From Marinilabiliaceae bacterium (GTDB lineage Bacteria; Bacteroidota; Bacteroidia; Bacteroidales; Marinilabiliaceae): a stretch of 64,000 nt of DNA. A program made the translations under genes and the position numbers. Location of the stretch: assembly GCA_016933045.1 (NCBI GenBank), contig JAFGBR010000008.1, positions 1-64,000 of the forward strand. Reading direction: 5' to 3'. The notes beneath the pieces are model-generated. The model was not told the origin of the DNA and searched no databases. It worked only from the letters and a program-made list of their open reading frames with translations. This document shows, piece by piece, positions 1,472 to 24,208 of the stretch (positions are counted from its first letter, which is position 1; the number at the start of each line of letters is the position of its first letter).

Positions 1472-3148
1472 ATGAAATACAGATGGACCTGCCTTTTATT
1501 AATAAAATTGCTATGTATAGATAGCAATAGTTATGGTCAGGATATTGCTGGTCTAAAAAATGAAAAATTCTTTAATATTTCTGGACAATTAGGTGCCTCT
1601 ATGGTATCATACCATGTTGATGGGCGGGAAACCACAAGACCCGATTTTTCATGGATGATTGTAGGTAATCCTGTCATTAGCCTTTATGGCATCACCTTCC
1701 CGTTTTCGATGACCATAAGTGACCAGCATCGTAGTTTTAGTCAGCCATTTAATAAAATTGGGGTGAGCCCTTATTATAAATGGGCAAAATTACATCTGGG
1801 ATACCGCAATCCGTTTTTTTCGCAGTACACACTTGGCGGGCATACCATACTGGGCGCTGGTGGTGAGTTTACTCCCGGAAAATTTAAAATTGGGATCATG
1901 CATGGGCGGCTGTACAAGCAAGTAAACTCCGACCCTCTTTTGCTTTCAAATCCTGACAAATACCAAGTGCCATATTACAAACGCAACGGTACCGGGTTAA
2001 TGTTAGGCTATGGCAGTGGAACTAATTCAGTCAACATTTCGTTTTTTCATGGTTTAGATGTTGTTTCTTCGGTAAACAGTCAAACCCAAACACTAATAAA
2101 ACCTGCCGAAAATGCCGTTATTTCCATCAGTACCAAACAAAAAATAGCTAAAAAATATGAATTTGGGCTCGAATTCGCTAAAAGTGCCTATACCAGCGAT
2201 ACTCAAAATGATTCATTAAAAAATGGATCTTCATTTTTTTCCAGCCTAATAAAATACAATGCCACCACCACCGAGAGCAATGTGATTGACATTCATTTTG
2301 GGTATAATACCGAGATGGTTGGGTTAAACCTCCGCCTTAAACAAATTGACCCGGGGTTTCGCTCAATGGGAACCTACTATATACAAAATGATTACCGTAA
2401 CATCACCATCGAACCGCGCTATAGTTTTTGCAATAAAAAATACAGCCTAAACGGTAGTCTTGGATTTCAAAAAGATAATATTAAAAAAACAACTCCATAC
2501 CAAACAAACAGAACTATTGGTTCTTTAAGTTTTTCGGCAATGCCATGGAACTGGTATAAAGCCGATATTACCATATCGAATTACAACACTTTAATGAAAC
2601 GTGGCTTATCGGAGATAGATACCTTAATGAAGGTATCTCAAACGACCCGATCGTTCAACATGAATCAGAACTTTAACTTCACCAAAGAAATTTTTGCGCA
2701 TAATTTTTTTGTAGTATTTAATAATCAGAAACTTAAAGATAACAACCAAAATTCAGCATCATATAACAATTATAGCTCAAACATGTTTTCCGGCTCCTAT
2801 TTTTTGAGTTATATCCCTAAAGCAATGAATGTTAGTGTAACCTATAATTTATCATCGTTTGATTTAGCAAGCATCAACACACACGTAAGAGGCCCTGTAA
2901 TAGCTTATTCGGCAGCATTTTTTAAAAACAAGCTGAATTTTTCGGTAAGCAATTCGTTTTATAAAACAATTGTAAATTCAGTCGATGATAATCAATTGGG
3001 TATAATCTCGATAAACAGCTCTTATCGAATTGCAAAACAACACAGGTTTCGATTATCGTATTATAACCATAAAAGCAAAAGTTTAAATGGTTCATCAACA
3101 AATTTTACAGAGAATAAGGGTGAAATCGGATACTCATATACATTTTAA
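1472..3148 (+). CDS. Probable outer-membrane beta-barrel protein of unknown function
   Basis: 558 residues starting with a hydrophobic export signal (about residues 5-22, ending SYGQD). The mature part is rich in alternating aromatic and polar residues and Gly/Asn/Ser turns and ends in YSYTF; a terminal aromatic is typical of outer-membrane barrels. No known enzyme motif was seen. It is not the short PorP/SprF type, being much longer and lacking the usual start of that family. It lies 3 bp upstream of the giant TANFOR-like gene, so the two are almost certainly co-transcribed and co-translated. A possible role is an outer-membrane pore or anchor for the two exported proteins that follow. The barrel call is a judgement from composition and the C-terminus; the role is inferred from context only. 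Confidence 0.6.
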   Translation: MKYRWTCLLLIKLLCIDSNSYGQDIAGLKNEKFFNISGQLGASMVSYHVDGRETTRPDFSWMIVGNPVISLYGITFPFSMTISDQHRSFSQPFNKIGVSPYYKWAKLHLGYRNPFFSQYTLGGHTILGAGGEFTPGKFKIGIMHGRLYKQVNSDPLLLSNPDKYQVPYYKRNGTGLMLGYGSGTNSVNISFFHGLDVVSSVNSQTQTLIKPAENAVISISTKQKIAKKYEFGLEFAKSAYTSDTQNDSLKNGSSFFSSLIKYNATTTESNVIDIHFGYNTEMVGLNLRLKQIDPGFRSMGTYYIQNDYRNITIEPRYSFCNKKYSLNGSLGFQKDNIKKTTPYQTNRTIGSLSFSAMPWNWYKADITISNYNTLMKRGLSEIDTLMKVSQTTRSFNMNQNFNFTKEIFAHNFFVVFNNQKLKDNNQNSASYNNYSSNMFSGSYFLSYIPKAMNVSVTYNLSSFDLASINTHVRGPVIAYSAAFFKNKLNFSVSNSFYKTIVNSVDDNQLGIISINSSYRIAKQHRFRLSYYNHKSKSLNGSSTNFTENKGEIGYSYTF

Positions 3149-3151
3149 ACT

Positions 3152-6100
3152 ATGATTGGTAATCAAAATAAAAACCGCATAAAAAGATTATTGTGTGGGA
3201 TGTTGCTTTTTGCAGGAACATGTTTATCTGCAAGCGGACAGGGAATTTTTGTCAATACCATAGTTACCCCGCCTTATGGTAGCGATGTTGAGTCGTATGC
3301 CGACAAAACAAGAATTATCATAACAGCATCTCTTGCTGACATAAATAACGTAGAGTGTTATCTACACATAAAAATAATTGGTAACAATGGCATTGTTCTT
3401 CAGTCATTACCCGATAGAGAATACCCAACCTTTAACCTTACCAATGGAGCACCAATAATACTTACCGGGCATGATTTATTCGATTATTTCCGACTTGCAA
3501 ACTTATCCGTTTCAGGAATTGGACTTCATGAGTTGCAAAGCCAGGGACTGCCCGAAGGCGATTACCAGATCTGCGCACGTGTTTTTCATCTGGGAAACCC
3601 ATGGTCAGATGAAGCTCCTTCGGGATGTAGTAATTTCTTTCAAATCTCTTATGTCAATCCTCCAACAATCATATCCCCGGTAAATCAGAGTGTTATTGAT
3701 TCCAAAATAATGCAAAACATAATTTTCAATTGGATACCATCACCGGGCTCTCCACCATGGACTTCGTATCAGTTAAAGATTTTTGAATTGCGCGATTCCA
3801 CACAATCGCCCGGAGATGCAGTTTTATCGGGTATCCCTTTTTTCGAAACCACTATTTTACAAACTTCATTTTTATATGGTCCCGCTCAACCACTTCTGGA
3901 GCCCGGATTACGTTATGCGTTCCAGGTTAAGGCATTGGATTCTGAAACAGGACAAAAATATAAAAATGATGGTAACAGTGAAGTGTTCTGGTTTAAATTC
4001 AATGAACCAAACATAGGTGTTATTCAAACAACCTACACTGATGATGAAAGCCCTGTGCTTGACAACATTCTTGAAGATTTTAAAAAAGAATTTGAGTTAA
4101 TTCCTTCAACACAAATTAGCGGTCGTATTTTTTCAAAGTTTCCGGACAATACGATCAATTATCTTCTGGATGGTATGCCTTTCGAAAACAATGAAAAAAT
4201 TACCATGCCCGATCAACCAATAGGTAGTATTGATATTTCAAAACGTTACGGGCCATCGGTGAAAAATGACTCGCAAAAATCGTTACCCGAAAATAATACG
4301 CTGCCACAGGAGGTAAAACAATTTAGCTATTCTGATATTGTAAATGTAAGCGATATTGTCGTTTCCAATGCCGGTAACATTAGTATAAATGCCGGTTCTG
4401 GCTTTTCGAAAACACAAATAAGTGAGAAAAGTGAAGCCTCACTTAACAATATTTCCACAGGAACTACAAATAATTCCGACTTTTTAACCAGCATTAAAAA
4501 AGCACCTTTTTATTATTTTGGCAACACCGAGCAAATTGAAAATGTAAAGCCACTTGCAAATCAACGGGTAAAACTGGTGGGTCGGTATGCCATTCTTCCT
4601 GAAGGCGATTTGGTGGGGGGTGTCAATTTTCCAAAATACGGAAATGTGGGTGAAGCTGGTAATTATTATAAATTCTACGATCTTTTTGAGAAAAACAGAA
4701 CTGATGTTTATAAAATTGCAGATGTGGTACTTGCTGTAACCGAAACAGATGAAAATGGTAATTTCACCTTCGATTTTACTTCTGATTTTTTTACAGGTCA
4801 TTTCTATTTCGACGAACTCACGCCCCCTTCTTTAGATAAAGATATGTTGATGCAAAACCCCCGTGATAAGTTAGGTTGGGTTATGGAAAATGTGTTTCCT
4901 GGGGCCGATAATTTTAATGTAAATAATATCCAGGCATTTGACAATAGTATTGCCATACAAAACAATAGTGCTGCAGGATTAAACAATAATACTGTGAATG
5001 AAAACATTCAAGCTCCACAGCAGCAAAAAGTGATGAGCGGAACAAATACCAATTTTTTGTTTGATAGAGGCGGATATATCTGTTTAAAAATAGAAGTTGA
5101 AAACCCAAAATTTTGCAGTCCCGATATTGACATTTTTGTAATGCCCGGCGATAATTTAGCCATACCCGATCAGGTAGCAAAAGTTAAAACGTATGATTTA
5201 ATAGTAAGAGGGATTGCTTCTGACGAAGATAATCAAATTGCCGAACGCAACAAACCCATGGATAATGTTAACGTACAGGTATTTCGTGATTATTCAGACT
5301 CGCAGGACGAAATAGAAATACTGCGTCGTTACGAAGGGCAAAAACTAAATTCAAAAACCACTAATAATTATGGAGAGTTTAAAGATGTAGCCAAAGGTAT
5401 TTCGGGAGCAGCTCCTAACGATTTGGTTTATCTCAAAAACCTCATTAAACATGCCGGTTTTAACCCCCAATATTATGTATCCCTCTCGGTTAGAGATGTT
5501 ACAGTTTCAAGCAGCGAATACGAAAATACAAAGTATAATTACAAATCGGTTTTTATTCCCATACCCGATAATAAAATTACTTCGGCAACCCAGCGACCTG
5601 AGTTTATGTCCGGGGGCAATAGTTATCCAGGGGCGTTTGTTACTTATAATCATTTATACAAAGACTCGGAAATTTTTGAACTTGATTGCACTTTGTACCC
5701 CGAAAACCCTGAAATAAAAGGCAGGGTTATGGCTCAAACCAATATACAAAATCTGGGAATGAGCGATGTTGGTGTTAAACTGTATAAAAAAGACGATCCG
5801 GGAGGATATTATTCCCTAAGTAGTTTTATGATGCAAGCATCTTTACCAGTTTCTTCAACATCAATAGAGGCTGAGCAGTCCACAAACGATGTAGGTATTT
5901 TCAGATTCCAAAACTTACCTATTGCCATTAAAAACAATTATATACACGGCCCATACAGGAGTATTTACATTTCACACCCTGGTTATAAAAGAGTGCTATT
6001 GCCAAAACCGGGTTTCGATCTCTTAAACATTAAAAAAGGGACGTTAATTGATTTTAAAGACATTAACCTGGAGCGAGCCGACTCATTAAAAGGCCTTGTA

Positions 6101-9100
6101 AAAGATGAAGATGGAAATCCTGTTGTTTCGTATGTTAAAACTGAGTATTCGCCGTTTTATAAAACTTATAATAAAATATTTTTGGGTAAACAATACGAGT
6201 TTTTTTCAATCCCTTTTTACGATGAAGACCCGAAAATTAGTGTTGAACCAAAATCGAGTGCCTATTTCGGATGCGATACCACGCTTACTCAACTGCCAAC
6301 AAAACCTTTGGAAATAATTGTTTACAAAAAATTGTACCGTCCCGAAATTTTGGTTAAAAATTCAAAAGGCGAACCTATTACAAATGCTGAAGTTACCATC
6401 AACGATATTATAGTAAAAACCACATCGCAGGGAATTGCGCGTTTCAAATTTGCTTCGCCAGGCAACCAGTTTGTTGTTAAAATTATACCACCCGATGATT
6501 ATTCACCAATTCAGCAAATTATAGAGTTAGAGGTAACTCCCGGCTGGAAACGGCATGTATTTGTTGTTAAAAACGGCAAATCGATAAGCGGACATGTAAC
6601 TAATAAAAAAACCAAGTTCTTAGTGAGCGGAGTGAAAATATTTTCAGAGTTGAGTTATGAAAATGGGTTAAGACTCTATATCGAAACGGAAACTGATGCT
6701 AATGGCTCTTATTGGCTAAAAGGCGTTCCATCAGATGCCACTTCTATTAAAGTACATATTGTAAAACCGGGCAACAACCCAACCTATACGGGTAAAACTG
6801 CAACAGTTAATTTTCCGCAGGGTCAATTTTATGTGAATGTGAATTTCGAAATTGAACCACTTGAGGGATGGGATATGGCAGACATATGGGGATATCCGGT
6901 GGCTATCGAGAAATTTGAACTGAACATAACTAATCCCGACAGGGCGAAAATAAGTGGTTATTTTTATAATCTTCCAAGTGTAAAAGGAGTAGAAATCCAA
7001 CAACCCAATCTAAAAATACCCTTTAATAATTTAGATATTAAAAAACTATCGAACGCTAAGGGAGTACCACTTACCGATAAAATTATCTTAACGGCCAATT
7101 CTATTCCCTTCATCATTAACGGAACATTTAAGGGAGAACTTAAAAACATGAAAAAATATGGCTCAAACACAATTTTAAACAAGTCGTTGGAAATTAATAA
7201 AGAAGGAGATTTTGCGGTTATTAAAGGAATGGCAGGATTAGACCTAAATTCGTTTAACGTTTCTACTTCCTTTAACGGTAGCTTTTTTCTGGGCGATAAT
7301 TTACAAAGCAATAAAACAACCATGTTTTCAACAAACATTGCCTCGGTACAGAATGCGATAAACAGCGTTATGCAACAAAGCACAATGCAGAATGCATCAA
7401 ATAACGTTAAACAAGCTACCAACATAAAGAACATAAATACGGAAAACACAAATACCTTAAACGTTACAGGTGCAAACTATTCAAATAATACTATTTCAAC
7501 TGCTTATGCCGAGTTCAATGTTTTTAGTCTTGACGACAACCTGCAGCCAATACCATTTAAGAACTATATGGTATATAATTTTAGGGCAAGTTCAATTTTA
7601 AACGAAAAATCAAAATTGGTGAACGATAAAATTCTCATTCCAACAATTTTGCATACCGATATTCCCACATCAATTAATTCAGAAAATCTCGACTTAAAAA
7701 TTAATGTTGGAGATATAATTGTAACAAATTCAGAAGTAACACTCAACGAAATGCCTTATTCCGATTTTAGCTTCGATCTGGAAAAGTGGAAATTGTATGG
7801 AAAAGACGATTGGTATTTCGATAAAAACGAAGAAGCTATTGTACTTAAAAAAGTACTGGTTAACACAGGCGTAGGACTTGATGTGACACTTAAAAATATG
7901 CATATTGGCCCCAACTATATTGGCGAAACAGAGGTGGATATTGAAGGAGGAATTAATTTGGGTGGTATTAAAAAAATCACACTCAATCCAGGTTTAAAAC
8001 CCATATTCAATTACGACAATATTGGTCATTATCGTATTAGTGTTGTAGGATCTTTGTCAGAGGGTACTCCGGCAGGTTATATCAGTGGCTTGCCCGAAAT
8101 GAAATCAAGTGATCGGATTGAGTTTAACTCTATTGGCATACTTAGTAATCAAACCGAGGCTTTATCGATAAACGGAGCTTTTACGTTTTTTGATATTATC
8201 AACGTGGAAGTCAATCGAATTGTTACCGGCAATGGATATTTTGATTTGGTTGGGCAGCCTAGTACCGGAATTCCGGCGTTTTTCCCAACTGAAACAACCA
8301 TGCGATATAAACTTGATAAAGGGAAAATTATTGGTGAAATGCAGTTTTTAGACGGACAAATAGACTGTCCCGGCAATGTTACTTTTTCACTTGACAAAAA
8401 CAATACCTCACAAACATTTTCAACAGGAAAATACACTTCGTATGGAACGTTTACAATAGCCGGAGGTAATGGTGCCAATAGTGAATCGTTTACTTTACGC
8501 GGGTTTTTAACCAAAACCAAAACCAGTTGTGATATTAAGGTTATTAAGGTTGATAATAATAAATTATATGAGGGGGCTGACTTCCAAAAGGTTGTGATTG
8601 GTAGTAATAGTGTTGATGTTTTTGAGGGTTTAATTAACACCTCTGATAACAATTGGGGGATTTTGAGTTACAATGGATATACCCAATCAATCAATGGACT
8701 TGAGGACAAAAATAATGTACTGGAATTTAAAGTAAATGGAGCCATTGATGTTTCGAGCAGCAATGTTAAAGTTACAAATATTGATGTTGGAATGGGTAGT
8801 ATGACGATGGTTTACGACATCAACTCGGGCAGTATGACGGGAACCTTAAATATTAACATGCTTCCATTGGGGTATGCAACAATAAAACAAGGGTTAATGA
8901 AAATGTGCTTTGACAGCCATGGATATTATTTTGCCGTTAACAGTCAATTAATAATAGGAGTTAACGATGGATGGAAAGGTGGCTTTGTGATTGGCAATAC
9001 CAACTATATTAATCCAACAGATTTAACTCAAATAAAAAAAGCATTTAAAGAAGGATATTTACCACCATTCTTTAAAGGCGGTTCTTTAACCGGATTTTAC

Positions 9101-9520
9101 ACCATAGGTGAAAAACAGCTTCTTGACAAATCATACGATCTCATTTTTGTTGATGCTTCATTAAAAGCCGGTTTAGGTGCATTTGTCAATGGAGATTTCG
9201 GATCTGACCCTGAATTTTTAATTGGAGGTTATGCATATGCAAGCTTGCATGGAGAGGCTGGTTTAAGCAAATTATGCCGTGTTGGAGTTGGCATTGATGT
9301 CCATGGCATAGTATCAGGTGGTTATGATAACGGTTCTTTTTCGTTCAGCAATTGTTTGTCGATTGCCGGAAAAGGTTGGTCTGATGGTTATTGCACAGCA
9401 CCTCTTAAAGCATTAGGAGTTCCAACCAGCCTTAGGTTTTCATTAAAAGCTGATTGCATTTACAATAATGGATTTAATTTTAATATTAGTGAGGGCTCAT
9501 GTTCAGGTCCGTCTAAATAA
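3152..9520 (+). CDS. Giant (2122 aa) exported TANFOR-like multi-domain protein
   Basis: A signal peptide (residues 1-29, basic start then LLCGMLLFAGTCLSASGQ) is followed by GIFVNTIVTPPYGSDVESY, which resembles the N-terminus of the TANFOR family described from Tannerella and relatives. An FnIII-like region (about 165-280, PPTIISPVNQSVI) follows. Several carboxypeptidase-regulatory-like beta domains lie at about 850-1230, with motifs such as IKGRVMAQ, LKGLVKDEDGNPV and ISGHVTNKKT. The long C-terminal half is Asn/Gly-rich, probably beta-structured and not recognised. The tail (about 1850-2122) is Gly-rich with four or more Cys. No T9SS sorting domain is visible at the end, so if it reaches the surface it may use another route, perhaps the upstream barrel. 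Family naming is by memory of motifs. The function is unknown. Confidence 0.65.
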   Translation: MIGNQNKNRIKRLLCGMLLFAGTCLSASGQGIFVNTIVTPPYGSDVESYADKTRIIITASLADINNVECYLHIKIIGNNGIVLQSLPDREYPTFNLTNGAPIILTGHDLFDYFRLANLSVSGIGLHELQSQGLPEGDYQICARVFHLGNPWSDEAPSGCSNFFQISYVNPPTIISPVNQSVIDSKIMQNIIFNWIPSPGSPPWTSYQLKIFELRDSTQSPGDAVLSGIPFFETTILQTSFLYGPAQPLLEPGLRYAFQVKALDSETGQKYKNDGNSEVFWFKFNEPNIGVIQTTYTDDESPVLDNILEDFKKEFELIPSTQISGRIFSKFPDNTINYLLDGMPFENNEKITMPDQPIGSIDISKRYGPSVKNDSQKSLPENNTLPQEVKQFSYSDIVNVSDIVVSNAGNISINAGSGFSKTQISEKSEASLNNISTGTTNNSDFLTSIKKAPFYYFGNTEQIENVKPLANQRVKLVGRYAILPEGDLVGGVNFPKYGNVGEAGNYYKFYDLFEKNRTDVYKIADVVLAVTETDENGNFTFDFTSDFFTGHFYFDELTPPSLDKDMLMQNPRDKLGWVMENVFPGADNFNVNNIQAFDNSIAIQNNSAAGLNNNTVNENIQAPQQQKVMSGTNTNFLFDRGGYICLKIEVENPKFCSPDIDIFVMPGDNLAIPDQVAKVKTYDLIVRGIASDEDNQIAERNKPMDNVNVQVFRDYSDSQDEIEILRRYEGQKLNSKTTNNYGEFKDVAKGISGAAPNDLVYLKNLIKHAGFNPQYYVSLSVRDVTVSSSEYENTKYNYKSVFIPIPDNKITSATQRPEFMSGGNSYPGAFVTYNHLYKDSEIFELDCTLYPENPEIKGRVMAQTNIQNLGMSDVGVKLYKKDDPGGYYSLSSFMMQASLPVSSTSIEAEQSTNDVGIFRFQNLPIAIKNNYIHGPYRSIYISHPGYKRVLLPKPGFDLLNIKKGTLIDFKDINLERADSLKGLVKDEDGNPVVSYVKTEYSPFYKTYNKIFLGKQYEFFSIPFYDEDPKISVEPKSSAYFGCDTTLTQLPTKPLEIIVYKKLYRPEILVKNSKGEPITNAEVTINDIIVKTTSQGIARFKFASPGNQFVVKIIPPDDYSPIQQIIELEVTPGWKRHVFVVKNGKSISGHVTNKKTKFLVSGVKIFSELSYENGLRLYIETETDANGSYWLKGVPSDATSIKVHIVKPGNNPTYTGKTATVNFPQGQFYVNVNFEIEPLEGWDMADIWGYPVAIEKFELNITNPDRAKISGYFYNLPSVKGVEIQQPNLKIPFNNLDIKKLSNAKGVPLTDKIILTANSIPFIINGTFKGELKNMKKYGSNTILNKSLEINKEGDFAVIKGMAGLDLNSFNVSTSFNGSFFLGDNLQSNKTTMFSTNIASVQNAINSVMQQSTMQNASNNVKQATNIKNINTENTNTLNVTGANYSNNTISTAYAEFNVFSLDDNLQPIPFKNYMVYNFRASSILNEKSKLVNDKILIPTILHTDIPTSINSENLDLKINVGDIIVTNSEVTLNEMPYSDFSFDLEKWKLYGKDDWYFDKNEEAIVLKKVLVNTGVGLDVTLKNMHIGPNYIGETEVDIEGGINLGGIKKITLNPGLKPIFNYDNIGHYRISVVGSLSEGTPAGYISGLPEMKSSDRIEFNSIGILSNQTEALSINGAFTFFDIINVEVNRIVTGNGYFDLVGQPSTGIPAFFPTETTMRYKLDKGKIIGEMQFLDGQIDCPGNVTFSLDKNNTSQTFSTGKYTSYGTFTIAGGNGANSESFTLRGFLTKTKTSCDIKVIKVDNNKLYEGADFQKVVIGSNSVDVFEGLINTSDNNWGILSYNGYTQSINGLEDKNNVLEFKVNGAIDVSSSNVKVTNIDVGMGSMTMVYDINSGSMTGTLNINMLPLGYATIKQGLMKMCFDSHGYYFAVNSQLIIGVNDGWKGGFVIGNTNYINPTDLTQIKKAFKEGYLPPFFKGGSLTGFYTIGEKQLLDKSYDLIFVDASLKAGLGAFVNGDFGSDPEFLIGGYAYASLHGEAGLSKLCRVGVGIDVHGIVSGGYDNGSFSFSNCLSIAGKGWSDGYCTAPLKALGVPTSLRFSLKADCIYNNGFNFNISEGSCSGPSK

Positions 9521-9579
9521 AATTAACTAAATCTATTAGAATAAATATGAGATTTATTTCATTATAAAATAACATTTGA

Positions 9580-11094
9580 ATGAAATCATTAATTATAATT
9601 ATCGGGTTGTTAATCAGCATTAATACTCTTCTCTTGTCACAGCAGGTTAAGGGCATACAATCTGTAAACAGGGGCAACCACCCCGAAATGAAATGGGTTA
9701 CTCAAGATTCTTTACGTGAGGATAGTATTAGCGTTTGGCGCACCAATATCAAAGCCGAAAAGTTTCGAAAAATTGAAACTATTGTTATTTCCAATAGCCG
9801 AAATGATTCTGTTTTTTACACAGTTATTGATACAACCTTAACTGAAAAAGGCATCTATAAATACTATTTACTTCTGCATTTTAAAAATGATACTGTATTA
9901 ATGTCCGATAAAATGTACGGTCATAACATGGGCGATATACCAGCTCCTGCAATTGTTTCGGTATATGCAAAATCTCTTACCAACCGCAAAGCCATTGAAC
10001 TTAACTGGAAGCTTAATTATAATTTTACAGTTAATGCGCTGTCTTTATTCCGAAGCACTAATTATGATAATGGCTACGAGTTAATTGCTCATCTCCCCGG
10101 TAATGCCGTAAAATATATCGATGCTGTGGATATATCAAACGAAGCCTACTATTATTTTATTCAAATTCGCGATTTTTTTGGCTATCAGTTCCCGTCAGTA
10201 AGGTTTCATGGCATCTGCACGTTTGCCGAAAAATGTTTGGCACCAATTAATTTTGAAGCCGGAATGGAAAATGGAAAAGTTAAACTCAAATGGGAAGTCA
10301 TGGGAAATAATGCTTTATACTCAAGAATATATCGCAAAGCAGGTGCAAAAGGTAGTTTTATGCCTCTTCATCAGCATGGTGTAAAAAATGGAGAAAAATG
10401 CTCGTTTACCGACGAAAAATTAGGTACTTTTATAGGTGATGATGTAAGTTATTACATAGTAAATATTAGCGATGGCTTTATAAATAGCTTATCAACAGAT
10501 ACGGTTACATTCAGGTTGCATCAAGAGAGACCCATTCCGGCACCCAAGGAGTTGAATTACATCATCGACTCACTTCAAAGTGTTAGATTAATATGGACAT
10601 CATTGTCCAACAACGTTAATGTTGGCGGATACAATATTTATCGTACCGACGAAAATAAAAAACAGCAAAAACTTAATAACGAACTAATTCCGATTGAAGT
10701 GAATTACTTTGTTGATAAAACCACTGAATTGGGTAACAGCTACACCTACGAAGTTGAGGCGGTAAGTTCAACTGGTGTTCCTGGTATTGTGCGAACAAAA
10801 GTTAATGTTAGTACCATCATGCCTGAAATCGAAATGTTAATATCAATCAAACATCTTGAAAAAGGATTTCGATTAAGCTGGATTCCTCCCAAAAATATAA
10901 CTATTAAGGAGATACATATTTATCGGCAAAATGGTGAAAATAATGCGGTTCTGGTAAAAAAAGTACCCGTAACCCAAACACAGCTTGTTGATAATAACTT
11001 ATCATCCGGAGAATACCTGTATTACGCCATTGCCAAAACTGTAGATGGATCAGAAATTATTGTTAATAAGGGGATTTTAACCAAAATAGACTGA
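9580..11094 (+). CDS. Exported protein with several fibronectin type III domains
   Basis: 504 residues; the signal peptide is residues 1-20 (IIIIGLLISINTLLLSQ). The mature protein is made of consecutive modules of about 90-110 residues with FnIII hallmarks: a Trp in strand B (IELNWKLNYN, VKLKWEVMG, VRLIWTSLS, FRLSWIPPK) and a Tyr-rich later strand (YYYFIQ, YTYEVEAV, YLYYAIAK). No catalytic motif or T9SS sorting domain is visible, so it may be periplasmic or attached to a partner. It is the last gene of the three-gene island and follows the giant gene by 59 bp. The domain call is good; a role as a binding partner of the two upstream proteins is inferred. Confidence 0.7.
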   Translation: MKSLIIIIGLLISINTLLLSQQVKGIQSVNRGNHPEMKWVTQDSLREDSISVWRTNIKAEKFRKIETIVISNSRNDSVFYTVIDTTLTEKGIYKYYLLLHFKNDTVLMSDKMYGHNMGDIPAPAIVSVYAKSLTNRKAIELNWKLNYNFTVNALSLFRSTNYDNGYELIAHLPGNAVKYIDAVDISNEAYYYFIQIRDFFGYQFPSVRFHGICTFAEKCLAPINFEAGMENGKVKLKWEVMGNNALYSRIYRKAGAKGSFMPLHQHGVKNGEKCSFTDEKLGTFIGDDVSYYIVNISDGFINSLSTDTVTFRLHQERPIPAPKELNYIIDSLQSVRLIWTSLSNNVNVGGYNIYRTDENKKQQKLNNELIPIEVNYFVDKTTELGNSYTYEVEAVSSTGVPGIVRTKVNVSTIMPEIEMLISIKHLEKGFRLSWIPPKNITIKEIHIYRQNGENNAVLVKKVPVTQTQLVDNNLSSGEYLYYAIAKTVDGSEIIVNKGILTKID

Positions 11095-12743: not shown

Positions 12744-12901
12744 CGGATGTTTTTGATTTAGAAAATTATGTATGTAATTAAATGTGTTTTTTATTGAATA
12801 AAAAACATAATTAATGAACCATTCAAAAAAGATAATTTATTAATTTAACACAATTAAATATTTTGCATAGTTTAGTAAATAAAAGCATTAAATCATATCT
12901 A

Positions 12902-14515
12902 ATGAAACGTTTATATTTTAAAGGATTATCATTGGTCGTTTTGTTGTTTGTATGTATTACATTAACAGGACAGAAAAACGACATTAAAAAAATTAAAAGT
13001 AATGTCCAGGGACTTATAGAAAGAGAAGATTTTGAAAATGCATCTGTTCAATTAAATGATGCAATAAAAAACAACCCCAACGATAAAGAGTTAAATCTGT
13101 TGCTGGGAATAACTCTTTTAAGTATGGATGGGCACGAGAAGGAAGCTGTTGAACAGTTAGAAATAGCTCGTGATGCTTTTAAGATGAAACAAAAGAAAAA
13201 TGATAATGCTATTAAAGCCAGATTTTATTTGGGGCAGGCTTATCATTTAAATTATCAGTTTGATGAAGCCAATAAAATTTTGGAGAAATTAAAGTCTGAT
13301 GTGCCATCAAAGCAAAACGAATTGCTTTTTCAAATTGAGAAAGAATTGCGTTACAATAATAATGCTATTGAATTGAAAAAAAATCCGGTAAAATTTAAAA
13401 TTACAAACCTGGGTTCAACAATTAATACACCTTACGATGAGCACAGCCCGGTTGTTTCAGCCGATGAAGAGATGCTGGTATTTACATCTAATCGCGAAGG
13501 AACCGGTGATACTAAAACTCCCGATGGATTGTTTTACGAAGATATTTATGTATCTCATTATAGATCAAAAAGCTGGACTCCGGCTCAAAATGTAGGTAGT
13601 TATATTAATACAGAGGGAAATAACGCAACAATTAGCATTAGTGCCGATGGTAAAACGTTGTTTGTTTATATGCACGATGGGGTATCAGGCGATATCTATA
13701 AAAGTGAGATGACTTTTGATGGATGGACTGTTCCTGAAAAGTTTCCTAAACCTATTAACTCGCAATATAGTGAAACTCATGCTTCTATTACATTGGATGA
13801 ATCTATCATATTTTTTTCAAGTGACAGGCCTGGTGGTTTTGGAGGTAAAGATATATACATGTCCCGGAAATTGCCTAACGGCGAGTGGGGTAAAGAGATT
13901 AACCTGGGATCTGAAATAAATACAGAAGGCGATGAAGAGAGTCCGTTTATTCATTTAGATGGTAAAACTTTATATTTTTGTTCTACTGAACATAACTCTA
14001 TGGGTGGATACGATATATTCAAAACTGAGTTAACTGATAGTGCTACATGGAGTAATCCTGTTAATATTGGCTATCCGATAAATACTCCTGATGATGATTT
14101 ATTTTACATTCCTACTGCAAACGAACAAAGGGTTTATTTTGCCAGCAGACGAGCTGGTGGCGAAGGTCGATCTGATATATATCTTATTGAGTTTGATGAA
14201 AGCGACCCTCGTTCGCTTGGTGTTGTGGCTGGATATATTTTTGATGAAAATAAAAAGCCTTATGGAAATGTAACTATTACCTTAACTGATAATAGAACGG
14301 GCGAACTGTTAGGTTATTACAGACCAAATCCTGTAACCGGTAAATATGTTATGATTATTCCTGCTGGTAATAGTTATGAAGCAAAATACCAAATAACCTA
14401 TAAAACAACAGATGAAACTATTGTTAAAACTTTCGATTTGTCAGGAAGAGGAAGTTATGGGAGTGGAAACTGGGCTACTTATTTAGATGCAATAGTTATT
14501 GGGGCTGATAATTAA
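12902..14515 (+). CDS. Exported TPR + PD40 beta-propeller protein (paralogue 1)
   Basis: 537 residues from the ATG at 12902; a TTG 39 bp upstream is in frame, but the ATG begins a clean signal peptide (MKRLYFKGLSLVVLLFVCITLTG). After it come TPR-like helices (about 30-150), then a WD40-like PD40 propeller (about 175-440) with repeats such as DEHSPVVSADEEMLVFTSNR and FSSDRPGGFGGKDIYMS, then a short carboxypeptidase-regulatory-like domain (about 450-530). This is the front part of the PorE/PG1058 architecture, but the OmpA-like peptidoglycan-binding domain usually at the end is missing. A role at the cell envelope, possibly T9SS-associated, is inferred from architecture. A paralogue follows 155 bp downstream. 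Confidence 0.75.
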   Translation: MKRLYFKGLSLVVLLFVCITLTGQKNDIKKIKSNVQGLIEREDFENASVQLNDAIKNNPNDKELNLLLGITLLSMDGHEKEAVEQLEIARDAFKMKQKKNDNAIKARFYLGQAYHLNYQFDEANKILEKLKSDVPSKQNELLFQIEKELRYNNNAIELKKNPVKFKITNLGSTINTPYDEHSPVVSADEEMLVFTSNREGTGDTKTPDGLFYEDIYVSHYRSKSWTPAQNVGSYINTEGNNATISISADGKTLFVYMHDGVSGDIYKSEMTFDGWTVPEKFPKPINSQYSETHASITLDESIIFFSSDRPGGFGGKDIYMSRKLPNGEWGKEINLGSEINTEGDEESPFIHLDGKTLYFCSTEHNSMGGYDIFKTELTDSATWSNPVNIGYPINTPDDDLFYIPTANEQRVYFASRRAGGEGRSDIYLIEFDESDPRSLGVVAGYIFDENKKPYGNVTITLTDNRTGELLGYYRPNPVTGKYVMIIPAGNSYEAKYQITYKTTDETIVKTFDLSGRGSYGSGNWATYLDAIVIGADN

Positions 14516-14670
14516 TAATTGGGTTTAGATTTTTCGCATGGATAATAATATTTAAACAGTTGTAAAATAATACCATAACTTTTAAACTAAGTTGCAAATT
14601 GATCATTTTTTTAAGTAATTTGTTTAAAGCAATTTTGTTTTAATGTACTTTATATAAATCCTTACCTAAA

Positions 14671-16614
14671 ATGAAGAAAACTGTTTTTTTTGCATGCGTG
14701 TTTATATATATAATTATACAAACCACAGTCTATTCTCAGTCTAATAAAAAAGAATTATCGAAAATTTATTCAGAAGCAGTGGCTTATGCAGAAGATAAGA
14801 ATTATCATGAAGCTATAAGTCTTTTAAAACGGTTGGTTTCAGAAGATCCGGAAAGACCTGAGGTTTTATACTACCTTGGTTATTGTTATTTGAATTGCAC
14901 CAATGGAGCCGATTCGGCTGTGATTTTTTTTCAAAGAGGATTGATGGTTTTACCTGAAGCAGATCGAAATAGTAGTTTAGGTGTTGATTTACAATATTCC
15001 GTTGCAAAATCATATCATTTACAAATGAAATTTGATCAGGCAATTGATGAGTTTGAAAAACTATTGTTAATCATTCCGGATGAAGATGTGGAGATGCAAG
15101 ATCGTATAAAACGCGAAATAGAAACATGTAGTAATGGAAAGGAATTGGTTAATAAACCTGTTAAACTTGAAGTCGTTAATCTTGGCGACGCAATAAATTC
15201 GGGTGATGATGATCATAGCCCTCTTATCTCGGCCGATGGAGAATTGATATTTTATACAACCCGTCGTGAATCTGAATATAATGAGTTATTGCCCGATGGT
15301 CAGTATAGTGAAAAAATATTCTATTCGAAAAAAACAGGTGATAAGTGGACGAAAGGTGATATTATTAGTAAGCTGTTTCGTAAGGATGGGCACGAATCGT
15401 GTGTTGCGTTGTCGGCCGATGGACAGGAATTGTATTTGTACCGTAATGATATTGAAGGTCGTAATTTATACGTTTGCTTATATGATGGATCTAGCTGGTC
15501 GGAACCAACTAAATTACCTAAACCAATCAACTCAATTTACGATGAAACTCATGTTACTTTAAGTCCCGATAAATCTGTAATGTATTTTACAAGCAGCAGA
15601 CCCGGAGGTTATGGCGGATTGGATATTTACGAAGTTCGTCGTTTGCCAGATGGAAAGTGGGCTTCTCCTAAAAACTTAGGGTCTGAGGTTAATACAAAAT
15701 ATGATGAAGAGACTCCAATGTTACATCCCGATGGAAGAACTCTTTATTTTGCATCTGAAGGGCATAACTGCATGGGTGGTTTTGATATTTTTATTAGTCG
15801 TATTCAACCCGATAGTATATGGAGTAAACCAGTAAATATGGGATATCCGATTAATACTCCCGATGATGATTTCTTTTTTGTCCCAACTGTTTCATATAAT
15901 CAGGCTTATTATGCTTCGTCGCGTTTTGAAGATAATCATGGAGGCATGGATATTTATTTGGTACAGTACGAAGAACCAGTGGAAAATAGATTGGCTGTTT
16001 TAAAAGGAACAATACAAAGTGAAAATGATGCGCCAATTGAAACAGTACGTGTTTTTGTGTTCGAAAAAGAGAGTGGTGATTTAGTTGGTCAGTATTGTCC
16101 ACATGCAGGAACCGGAAAATATGTGATGATTTTAGAAGCTGAAAAGATTTATGAATTAAAATATTCCGGAGAAGGGTTTGAAGATTATGTGGCTAATTTG
16201 CCTGTTACCCGAAACATGACTTATTCTAATCTTCAGGCAGCAAAAAAAGTTGATGATGTAACAATGGCTTCTATTGTTAAAGAAGAGCCAAAGCAAACAA
16301 CTGATGTTGCAGTTAGTGATGTTAAACCATTAGATGCAAATGATGATATACCTTATTATACCGTACAGATTTTGACTTTAAATAAGCCGGTTATTTCGTG
16401 GGAAGATGCATTCAAGGGTTTAGATACAACATTGGTTAAAGAATACAAGTGCAAAAATAGTATGTATCGTTATGCTTATGGCCTTTTTAAAGGGTATAAA
16501 GCTACTTTAAAGGTCAAAGAGGAGGTGTTAAAGGTGTCTCCGTTTTCAGATTCATTTATTCGTGATGTTAAACAATATGACGATTTGATAGAAACTGCCG
16601 ATGATAAAAAATGA
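14671..16614 (+). CDS. Exported TPR + PD40 beta-propeller protein (paralogue 2) with SPOR-like C-terminus
   Basis: 647 residues with the same order as its upstream neighbour: signal peptide (1-22), TPR helices (about 30-150), PD40 propeller (about 170-430, for example TSSRPGGYGGLDIYEVR) and a regulatory-like beta domain (about 445-520). It adds a C-terminal domain (about 560-640): YYTVQILTLNKPV, then YRYAYGLFKGYKAT, then FIRDV. That pattern resembles SPOR-type peptidoglycan-binding domains. The order is shared with PorE-type proteins except that SPOR would replace OmpA as wall anchor. It arose by duplication with the preceding gene. The last 14 bp overlap the start of the acetyltransferase gene. 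Domain calls are good except the SPOR call, which is moderate. Confidence 0.72.
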   Translation: MKKTVFFACVFIYIIIQTTVYSQSNKKELSKIYSEAVAYAEDKNYHEAISLLKRLVSEDPERPEVLYYLGYCYLNCTNGADSAVIFFQRGLMVLPEADRNSSLGVDLQYSVAKSYHLQMKFDQAIDEFEKLLLIIPDEDVEMQDRIKREIETCSNGKELVNKPVKLEVVNLGDAINSGDDDHSPLISADGELIFYTTRRESEYNELLPDGQYSEKIFYSKKTGDKWTKGDIISKLFRKDGHESCVALSADGQELYLYRNDIEGRNLYVCLYDGSSWSEPTKLPKPINSIYDETHVTLSPDKSVMYFTSSRPGGYGGLDIYEVRRLPDGKWASPKNLGSEVNTKYDEETPMLHPDGRTLYFASEGHNCMGGFDIFISRIQPDSIWSKPVNMGYPINTPDDDFFFVPTVSYNQAYYASSRFEDNHGGMDIYLVQYEEPVENRLAVLKGTIQSENDAPIETVRVFVFEKESGDLVGQYCPHAGTGKYVMILEAEKIYELKYSGEGFEDYVANLPVTRNMTYSNLQAAKKVDDVTMASIVKEEPKQTTDVAVSDVKPLDANDDIPYYTVQILTLNKPVISWEDAFKGLDTTLVKEYKCKNSMYRYAYGLFKGYKATLKVKEEVLKVSPFSDSFIRDVKQYDDLIETADDKK

Positions 16615-17128
16615 TGGTGTTATTCTTCGTGCTGTTGAACCTGCTGATATAGATCTGTTATATCTGTGGGAAAACCAGATGGAGATATGGATTGTGAGTA
16701 ATACCATTACCCCTTTTTCTAAGCATCAACTTGAGAGATATGTTAAACTAAGTGCATTGGATGTGTTTCAGTCGAAACAGCTTAGGTTGATGATTGATTA
16801 TAAAGAATCAACAACAGGGAGTGAAACTGTTGGAATGATTGATCTTTACGATTTTGATCCATATCATCAACGCGCTGGTGTGGGTATTATGATTCATCAA
16901 AAATACAGGCAAAGGGGAATAGCTGTTGTTGCGTTAAGGTGTTTTGTCGATTATTGTTTTAATACGTTGAGTCTTCATCAGCTTTATTGTTCAATTTCTT
17001 CCGATAATAAAATCAGTCAAAAGCTTTTTGAAAATGCTGGTTTTAAATTAATTGGTATCCGTAAGGAGTGGTTAAAAACAGCATTGGGATTTGTTGATGA
17101 ATACCATTATCAATTATTAAAAGTATAG
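16601..17128 (+). CDS. GNAT-family N-acetyltransferase
   Basis: 175 residues. The central acetyl-CoA-binding region reads AGVGIMIHQKYRQRGIAVVAL, matching the R/Q-x-x-G-x-G/A loop of GNAT enzymes, followed by LYCSISSDNKISQKLFENAGFKLIG, the usual motif B of RimJ/RimL-type members. The substrate is not predictable: a protein N-terminus, polyamine or small amine are all possible. The start lies inside the end of the upstream gene (14-bp overlap), which implies co-translation. Confidence 0.85.
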   Translation: MIKNDGVILRAVEPADIDLLYLWENQMEIWIVSNTITPFSKHQLERYVKLSALDVFQSKQLRLMIDYKESTTGSETVGMIDLYDFDPYHQRAGVGIMIHQKYRQRGIAVVALRCFVDYCFNTLSLHQLYCSISSDNKISQKLFENAGFKLIGIRKEWLKTALGFVDEYHYQLLKV

Positions 17129-21487: not shown

Positions 21488-24208
21488 TTAGTTGATAATA
21501 AGTTTTGTAGCCTGATGTTTATTTGTTGTTATAAGGTAGATTCCGTTTGGTAAATTAATGTTTATTGATTTAGAATCAATATTTTTCGTCATTATTTTAG
21601 AACCATTAATAGATGTTATTTCTAACGTAGTTATAGCCGTATTAAAATTTAATATCCCATTTTTATAAATAACATTAAATTCGGGTTGCTGTAAATTATT
21701 TATTCCAGTCGATAATATTGTTATTGTTCCTATTCCGTCAATATAATCGGGATGAGATGTTGCTGTGAATGTCCCATTGGTATATTTGATACCTCCAAGA
21801 GTTAATGAACCAATAGAAATATTAGTGTTAACAATTGCTTTTGAACCCGTTGACAGTATAACGCTGTTGTTTGATGAAACACTTTCTGCGTGATCAAACT
21901 GAACGAAATTATCTGAGCCTACTGTTATTAACCCTGTTCCAAAAGCATTTGCACTCGCACCTGTAATTCCAACTGTTCCACCCGCATCAGTAGCATGAGT
22001 TGTAATATCCCATACTCCGTTAAAATTACTATTATCACCATTAAGCCAAACAGTTCCTTTGGTTGCCATTCCACTTTTTGTGTTTTTTGCTATAATTTTT
22101 GATGAACCTGTTATTGTCCCGGTAAGTGTCATTGAACTACTGCCACTATTAGTACCACCATTCATTTCTAAATTGATATCGGCATTAAAAACTATTGGAG
22201 CATTTAATGTAAAGCCATCGCCGCTTGTAGCATAGCTAATTCTGCTACCTGCATTAAAAGTTAATGTGCCTGTTGATGTGTGAGTTCCTCTTAAACGAAG
22301 TTTGCCTTTTGATGCTACGAAAATAATGTTTGCCTGATTTATAGTAGATGATGTTTCCATTTCTCCTTCGCAATATACAGTTTCTCCGGTTTCCGGTAAT
22401 AATGCCGGTGTATAGCTGGCAATATTATCCCAGGTGCCACCGGAAAAAGTGAATGAACTTGGTCGGCCTACAATAATAGATCCGGTTCCTGTAATTAGTT
22501 CGGGATTAGTTGTTGCATTGTAAGTGCCAACAGTTTGCAAATCATTATTGATATAAAATTCGCTTAAGGTAACTGTGCTATTTAAATTTAGTATTGCACC
22601 ATTAACTACTTTTAATGACGATTCGGGAAAGAATGCAGCATCATTGTTTACAATTAACGATGCCCCGCTTTTAACATCTACATCTGCATTGCCTAATGAA
22701 CCGGCAGTACTGGCATTTATTGTTCCTTCAACGACAGTGAATATGCCGGAATAATTAGTGTTATTGTTGGTTAATATAACTGTTCCAGTGTCGGTTTTAA
22801 TGATATTATGTATGCCATAAATTTCACCAGCAATTGTTAGGTTTGCACTTACCGACATTGTTATTGTGTCTTTAGTTGCAATTTTACCGTTTAATGTTAC
22901 ATCCGTTGATGCAGAAATTGTTGCTTTTTCGCAAATTAAATATGCTACTGTGCTATTTGATATAACATTTAAAGTAGCTCCTTCTTTTAAGTTAATATCA
23001 GCCGCAAAAGTTCCTCCATTGGCTTCTATGCTTATGTTTCCAATAACGTTTGCTACCTCAGAAGATGCAGGTATTCCATCAGGATCCCAGTTTTCTGAGG
23101 TTAACCAGTCGGCATTGGAGCCACCTCCATCCCAGTTATATGTAGCCACTAATGGCGGTTCCTCGTATGGAGCCCAACCGTCAGTGCCATTTAATACTTT
23201 TGCAGGAGTGTATTCAGCTGCTTCTGTTTCGTTTAATGCTTTTATTCCAGCCCAGTTAGCTCTTCCACTCATGTCGGCACCGGCGCCGGTATTGTTGTAT
23301 TCATATAGATGTAAATCAGTACTGGTAGCTGCATAGTCCATATTCCAGGTGTCGCCCCAGCCTTCGGGATGAATCATCTCTGTCATGTTGCAATTTAACC
23401 ATGTAACTTTTGGATATTCGTGCCATGGCCGGCCAAACCTAACTAAAGCTCCATCGTCTCCATTTCGTGGGCTGCCGGTTGCATAGGTTACATCGCAATT
23501 GTTAAAAACGTATCCATATTTTTGTGTTTGCGGAGTTGAAGGAGCGGTGATCCAACCACCACCATAACTTCTTATCTCGCATGATTCGAAAAAACCGATA
23601 CCTGCTCCATAAATATAATCGGTTCTTCCTAAAACCAGGCATCCTTCAAAATAGCTTCTTTTGCCGGCTGTCCATAAGTAAATAGTATCCTGATATCCTA
23701 AAATATCGCAGTTAATAAATGTTGTTTTATCGGCCTGAACTGTAATTGCCAATGCTTGACCAACGGGGCCGGCTGTATTTCTAATTGTTATGTTTTCGGC
23801 ACGGAAACCTTCACCCATAATGGTTAGTGTTGCAGATGTTCTGATGTTGTCGCCAGTCCACAATATAGCATCTTCGGCTGGACATTTATTACCTGATTCG
23901 GGACTGCTACAGTCATAAATATGATACGATATGATAGTTTGATCGCGACTTTCGCCAATAATTGTTACATTTTGTTTATCTGTGGGAACAATTAGTTTTT
24001 CGGTATTGTATAACCCCGATTTTATAAAAATAATTGTACGCCGGTCGGTTTGATTAGAAGGTACTGCATTAATTGCATCCTGAATTTTTGTAAAATTACC
24101 TGTTCCATCGGTTGCTACAATAATATCGGGGGTAATGCTAAACGACAACTGGTAAATACCAGACAGAAAAAATAATAATGTAGCAATTAGTATAGTTTTT
24201 AGTTTCAT
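21488..24208 (-). CDS. T9SS-exported pectinesterase with long beta-rich passenger region
   Basis: 906 residues. Signal peptide (1-25), then a pectin methylesterase domain (about 28-340) of the CE8 right-handed beta-helix type. Motifs are IVATDGTGNFTKIQDAINA, ALAITVQADKTTFINCDILG, GYQDTIYLW and GRTDYIYGAG (the two catalytic Asp) and RFGRPW (Arg). It removes methyl esters from homogalacturonan. Residues about 350-820 are Gly/Asn/Thr-rich, with autotransporter-like motifs (LTNNNTNYSGIFTVVEGTI, WDNIASYTPALLPETGETVYC), probably a stacked-beta carbohydrate-contacting stalk. The last 70 residues form a T9SS type A sorting domain (ITSINGSKIMT, LPNGIYLITT). It stands alone on the minus strand. Confidence 0.9.
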   Translation of the reverse strand: MKLKTILIATLLFFLSGIYQLSFSITPDIIVATDGTGNFTKIQDAINAVPSNQTDRRTIIFIKSGLYNTEKLIVPTDKQNVTIIGESRDQTIISYHIYDCSSPESGNKCPAEDAILWTGDNIRTSATLTIMGEGFRAENITIRNTAGPVGQALAITVQADKTTFINCDILGYQDTIYLWTAGKRSYFEGCLVLGRTDYIYGAGIGFFESCEIRSYGGGWITAPSTPQTQKYGYVFNNCDVTYATGSPRNGDDGALVRFGRPWHEYPKVTWLNCNMTEMIHPEGWGDTWNMDYAATSTDLHLYEYNNTGAGADMSGRANWAGIKALNETEAAEYTPAKVLNGTDGWAPYEEPPLVATYNWDGGGSNADWLTSENWDPDGIPASSEVANVIGNISIEANGGTFAADINLKEGATLNVISNSTVAYLICEKATISASTDVTLNGKIATKDTITMSVSANLTIAGEIYGIHNIIKTDTGTVILTNNNTNYSGIFTVVEGTINASTAGSLGNADVDVKSGASLIVNNDAAFFPESSLKVVNGAILNLNSTVTLSEFYINNDLQTVGTYNATTNPELITGTGSIIVGRPSSFTFSGGTWDNIASYTPALLPETGETVYCEGEMETSSTINQANIIFVASKGKLRLRGTHTSTGTLTFNAGSRISYATSGDGFTLNAPIVFNADINLEMNGGTNSGSSSMTLTGTITGSSKIIAKNTKSGMATKGTVWLNGDNSNFNGVWDITTHATDAGGTVGITGASANAFGTGLITVGSDNFVQFDHAESVSSNNSVILSTGSKAIVNTNISIGSLTLGGIKYTNGTFTATSHPDYIDGIGTITILSTGINNLQQPEFNVIYKNGILNFNTAITTLEITSINGSKIMTKNIDSKSININLPNGIYLITTNKHQATKLIIN

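Follow-up and report, generated by a model that had tools for sequence, protein, structure and literature searches.

A conserved three-gene unit of Bacteroidia encodes a candidate toxin-free TANFOR surface module with a predicted outer-membrane barrel partner

What is the task of a giant protein whose gene is set between a gene for an outer-membrane barrel and a gene for an array of fibronectin type III (FnIII) domains, and how would such a protein be exported? The question is raised by three consecutive genes (the trio) of a Marinilabiliaceae bacterium of the Bacteroidota, which lie near one end of a 64,000-nucleotide stretch of its DNA (the window: positions 1-64000 of contig C14, JAFGBR010000008.1; assembly G000, GCA_016933045.1, 3.9 Mb, 95% complete). 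All three are open reading frames (ORFs) of the + strand, at 1472-3148 (558 amino acids, aa), 3152-9520 (2122 aa) and 9580-11094 (504 aa), with gaps of 3 bp between the barrel and giant genes and 59 bp between the giant and FnIII genes. An earlier note, made from the sequence alone, had described this arrangement with the same coordinates and gaps, and the ORF check agrees with it. Each of the proteins starts with a hydrophobic, signal-peptide-like stretch, as judged by eye. The reading put forward here, with somewhat more confidence than doubt, is that the trio is a toxin-free surface module of the TANFOR class in which the giant would owe its export or anchoring to the barrel.

The trio is more than a chance assembly, since other families show it with the same order and spacing. 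The same giant is encoded in 16 loci of 15 other Bacteroidia genomes, and wherever the contig reaches far enough its gene is preceded by the barrel gene and followed by the FnIII gene. A search with residues 1001-2122 of the giant as the query picked up relatives in a further 14 genomes of the class, and one more genome (G041, locus L070) came from the first searches. The order of barrel, giant and FnIII gene is kept in L201, L203, L204, L206 and L208-L213, and also in L202, where the giant is divided over two ORFs; L198, L200, L070, L199, L205 and L207 show the trio as far as their contigs extend. Among the trio loci examined, no partner was absent where the contig runs on. The barrel and giant genes are a few bp apart in these loci, with a slight overlap in L070, and neither a TANFOR-toxin (zincin) gene nor an SprB-repeat protein was seen beside them. 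The view of the trio as a self-contained unit is upheld by this recurrence, and the search for co-occurrence in other genomes, which the earlier note had proposed, came out in its favor.

The second gene had been called TANFOR-like, and two results confirm this. TIGR02542 (TANFOR) matches residues 81-165 of the giant at an E of 6.6e-6, under the curated cut-off, and a profile of the first 300 residues of 12 full-length relatives, from which the window giant was left out, recovers it at an E of 2.8e-34. The signal-peptide-like stretch and the TANFOR head together span residues 1-310 (3152-4081, + strand), with AlphaFold, Foldseek and the alignment as evidence. The predicted head contains a hydrophobic N-terminal helix and two FnIII-like beta-sandwiches (predicted local distance difference test, pLDDT, 87.6), and its Foldseek matches are cytokine-receptor and FnIII folds. 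A CarboxypepD_reg domain (PF13620) lies at residues 1144-1213 (6581-6790, + strand), with a score of 32.4 bits against a cut-off of 32.3. The full giants, 13 in number, stand at about 19-25% identity to the window giant and can be aligned over almost their full length except for the linkers.

The third protein (9580-11094, + strand) has a weak fn3 match as its sole Pfam match (E 0.0045). A family profile makes it a member of a conserved family of FnIII-array proteins, in line with its earlier description as an FnIII array. In a sample of 296 genomes of the phylum, this family is present in 51 of the 70 genomes with a TANFOR protein, compared with 10 of the 226 others (p 4e-31).

The first protein (1472-3148, + strand) had been taken for an outer-membrane barrel, and its AlphaFold model, built with 37 relatives, is a confident barrel (pLDDT 86.8; predicted template modeling score, pTM, 0.76). 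About 25 long strands are predicted, with 24-26 as the approximate range, and the C-terminal residue of the protein is F. It matches no family among the Pfam and NCBIfam models and neither the PorP/SprF nor the PorV models, and its profile has no match among PDB sequences at an E of 1. The Foldseek neighbors of the model are Mtr complex chain B (E 5.7e-10), SlpA, FimD/PapC (FimD, E 9.2e-7) and LptD. At about 10% identity and TM-scores of at most 0.53, this likeness of a predicted structure informs on the size class of the barrel and says nothing of its function. In flavobacterial relatives (L110 and L117-L156; e.g., L119:9914-12439), an additional domain of about 240 aa follows the barrel at the C-terminal end and is probably periplasmic.

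The distribution of the barrel ties it to TANFOR proteins. In the 296-genome sample, TANFOR is present in 70 genomes and the barrel in 71; all 70 have both, only one genome has the barrel without TANFOR, and the Fisher p of 6e-68 overstates the independent evidence because the sampled genomes are related. The presence thresholds (TANFOR E <= 1e-15, barrel E <= 1e-20) were chosen after looking. Stricter thresholds gave 65/0/2 and 58/0/9 genomes with both, barrel only and TANFOR only; in the cases missed, the barrel match is weaker. With looser matches the barrel total is 129 genomes, and these matches are mostly outer-membrane proteins of 800-930 aa.

The same link is seen locus by locus. Among 80 named loci, which are the best 80 of 412 relatives and therefore lean to the search set's own kind, a TANFOR gene lies no more than about 10 kb from 72 of the barrels, and for 59 of the 80 it is the next gene downstream, with no intervening ORF of at least 150 aa. 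These loci span Bacteroidales, Cytophagales, Flavobacteria, Sphingobacteria and Chitinophaga; a 16-row barrel alignment was too diverse for the scan, and a tighter set was used. In six genomes (L158-L163), the TANFOR head and the barrel are fused as one ORF of 871-1016 aa, which is adjoined by FnIII and/or giant genes in four of the six. The trees of the two proteins correlate with an r of 0.96 over 91 pairs, a value to which vertical descent contributes. Among the relatives, the sole TANFOR genome without the barrel is G001. Its TANFOR-zincin gene (L176:8566-13464) lacks the first 80 residues and looks like a decaying copy. It is strongly supported by these genomic data that the barrel is a near-obligate, and apparently obligatory, partner of TANFOR proteins. 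Adjacency, co-occurrence and fusion indicate that the TANFOR head and the barrel act together.

In 2020, Jana, Salomon and Bosis (PMC7073777) presented TANFOR proteins of Bacteroidetes as polymorphic toxins. The earlier statement that no function is established was too strong in view of that description, although the giant of the window is not of the toxin type. A second TANFOR locus of the same genome is of this type (L058 = G000:C50:18400-38388). Neighborhood annotation gives its order as a cut giant of another toxin-free type (GA), an FnIII gene, an SprB-repeat protein (2508 aa) with a marginal sorting domain of the type IX secretion system (T9SS), a barrel, a TANFOR protein of 1526 aa that has a zincin-like domain, and then a small gene. 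Most TANFOR proteins of the named loci have a region with the motif HExxHGxxxxxH, which is present in 70 of the 74 proteins that match the zincin profile. In 61 TANFOR-zincin proteins, the zincin region is alike in all 1830 pairs and the last 250 residues in 23 of 1830. Such variable last 250 residues are the mark of polymorphic toxins, and the recognized tails include Peptidase_C39_2, Endonuclea_NS_2 and ADPrib_exo_Tox.

The metalloprotease-like HExxHGxxxxxH domain sits directly before the variable tail (L058:14761-19338 and about 70 related proteins) and could release it; PMC7073777 makes no mention of a protease in TANFOR toxins. At another locus (L062:2085-18349; G055:C62), TANFOR-derived cassettes form an array in which a small immunity-like gene, present in four to five copies, is interspersed.

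The giant of the window bears a TANFOR head like that of the toxins, so it might itself be a polymorphic toxin with an unrecognized tail. This is very improbable, as its C-terminus is conserved. The last 300 residues (8618-9517, + strand) are alike in 59 of the 78 pairs of window-type giants, and leave-one-out tests recovered all 13 of them, the window giant at an E of 1e-34. The giant contains neither a zincin domain nor HExxH, no toxin domain was found in it with Pfam, and the gene on its 3' side is no small immunity-like gene but the FnIII gene, followed by recR. The toxin reading was rejected as largely contradicted by the conserved C-terminus, and the trio, which lacks the features that define TANFOR proteins as toxins, is therefore not classed as a toxin. 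A conserved C-terminus with no metalloprotease-like domain or variable tail makes a structural or adhesive role at the cell surface probable for the giant. Its C-terminus matches that of the GA type weakly (51 columns, E about 1e-4, probability about 50%).

Toxin-type TANFOR proteins must leave the cell to act, and given their partnership with the barrel, the simplest account would be that the barrel exports or anchors TANFOR-headed proteins. Applied to the trio, all three proteins would reach the periplasm via Sec. The two FnIII-like sandwiches at the N-terminus of the giant would dock on or in the dedicated outer-membrane barrel, which would export the giant and/or keep it at the cell surface. 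The other 1,800 or so residues of the giant would form a conserved body of structural or adhesive function, and the FnIII protein may be a scaffold or an accessory component. Related barrels would serve TANFOR polymorphic toxins elsewhere, including at the second locus of this genome, and the T9SS may still be required by the trio. A wider proposal is that the barrel and the TANFOR head constitute a phylum-wide two-partner export system, distinct from the known ones and requiring no T9SS sorting domain, which carries toxins at some loci and a toxin-free surface structure at others; this is distinctly doubtful and is offered tentatively.

The main rival to barrel export is export by the T9SS with the barrel solely as an anchor. 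The giant would be a T9SS substrate with an unrecognized signal that leaves via SprA/Sov, and the barrel a dedicated anchor or shuttle, comparable to the PorP/SprF-like proteins for type B cargo. This is possible, if on the unlikely side. The giant had been described as having no T9SS sorting domain, and it indeed matches neither PF18962 or TIGR04183 nor any other type A or B sorting-domain model of Pfam and NCBIfam, which tells against T9SS export, as does the failure of the barrel to match the PorP/SprF or PorV models. In favor of this rival, each of the 69 other TANFOR genomes of the sample contains SprA. The other barrel-positive relatives, for which PF14349 was used because TIGR04189 misses SprA/Sov of Bacteroidales, all have SprA_N. 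These counts agree with the more than 95% given in PMC7073777, whose authors propose T9SS export. T9SS-sorted proteins are also encoded near the window trio and several other trio loci. However, the T9SS is widespread across the phylum (228 of 296 genomes), so its co-occurrence with TANFOR is weak evidence. SprA_N was not found in the assembly of the window, which is likely an assembly gap since PorU and PorV are present in the window at 27-32 kb, along with 96 T9SS sorting-domain matches in the assembly. The earlier view that the T9SS does not explain the export route is not supported, given the SprA counts and the presence of PorU and PorV. The data fit T9SS dependence and independence equally well.

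A further possibility is a non-exporting envelope structure, such as a tether or uptake device, in which the giant would be held on the periplasmic side of the barrel. A remote kin of the pair, found at L167-L173 (e.g., L169:1314-7886 and L173:2975-9665), pairs a TANFOR-like protein (about 370 aa) with a larger outer-membrane protein (about 800 aa). At L169 and L173, this pair adjoins a FecR-domain or small secreted protein, a CHASE2-adenylate cyclase and dxr/rseP-like genes, and it is possibly a sensory system. Such neighbors suggest that pairs of this kind can have a sensing role, and the surface location of the giant is itself putative. The envelope structure is nevertheless improbable: the same barrel family is used by toxin-type TANFOR proteins, whose nuclease and ADP-ribosyltransferase tails make no sense in their own periplasm.

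Several points weigh against export or anchoring of the giant by the barrel. As the T9SS is present in essentially all TANFOR genomes, the barrel need not be the exporter, and the folds closest to it are those of large barrels in general. The signal peptides of the trio were called by eye, and the co-occurrence of barrel and TANFOR was counted on related genomes with thresholds set post hoc. The docking, the contact between barrel and TANFOR head, the export or anchoring, and the role of the FnIII protein are inferred, like the surface location.

The 5' border of the unit is a perfect hairpin terminator at 1059-1091 (no strand assigned), which the terminator scan detected as a 15-bp stem followed by a T run on both strands. 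It separates the trio from the end of an upstream gene, whose product combines an HYR domain with a T9SS sorting domain. Within the trio, the scan gave pattern matches at chance level, and the sequence upstream of the barrel gene showed no promoter of the Bacteroidota consensus. Several toxin-free trios have beside them T9SS-sorted proteins of one family, about 320-390 aa long (L201:14053-15108, L205:4890-6065, L208:4359-5456 and 15681-16751, L211:13044-14021, L213:13685-14656); none is beside the trio of the window. Elsewhere in the window, two neighboring PorE / CHU_0125-like proteins (TPR and PD40) are encoded at 12863-16614, both well under the model cut-offs, and a 906-aa protein with a pectinesterase-like N-terminal half at 21491-24208.

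In size class, the barrel of the trio is comparable to the chaperone-usher barrels (FimD, PapC) and the Mtr complex barrel. The fold resemblance is weak, and no usher or PapD-like chaperone match was obtained for the three proteins. Two-partner secretion (type Vb, TpsA/TpsB) is alike in outline, with a dedicated barrel gene directly 5' of a giant that has a conserved N-terminal domain. The trio differs in having no POTRA, TpsB or TPS-domain match (Pfam, NCBIfam), in a barrel of about 24-26 strands instead of 16, and in a partner head that is FnIII-like and not a beta-helix. The SprB system, a T9SS cargo with PorP/SprF-like anchors, is comparable in that a large Sec-exported surface protein, as the giant would be, is paired with an outer-membrane protein in Bacteroidota, and SprB-repeat proteins occur in sister loci. 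In contrast to that system, the giant has no sorting domain, and the barrel is larger and outside the PorP/SprF models.

The TANFOR polymorphic toxins (PMC7073777) share with the trio the N-terminal TANFOR domain, the signal-peptide-like start, and FnIII and T9SS-related neighbor genes. The paper mentions no barrel or porin with these toxins, and no other paper treating TANFOR domains as its subject was found in a search that left preprints and most subscription journals outside. As far as checked, neither the toxin-free trio nor the barrel partner had been reported before. The route of TANFOR toxins out of the cell has been a standing question since 2020, for which the barrel supplies one testable gene. 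The trio differs from the toxins by its fixed order of barrel, giant and FnIII gene, with no variable toxin tail, zincin domain or immunity gene, and so separates delivery from killing: as the barrel, the TANFOR head and the FnIII protein would work here without a toxin, it offers a clean model for the mechanism.
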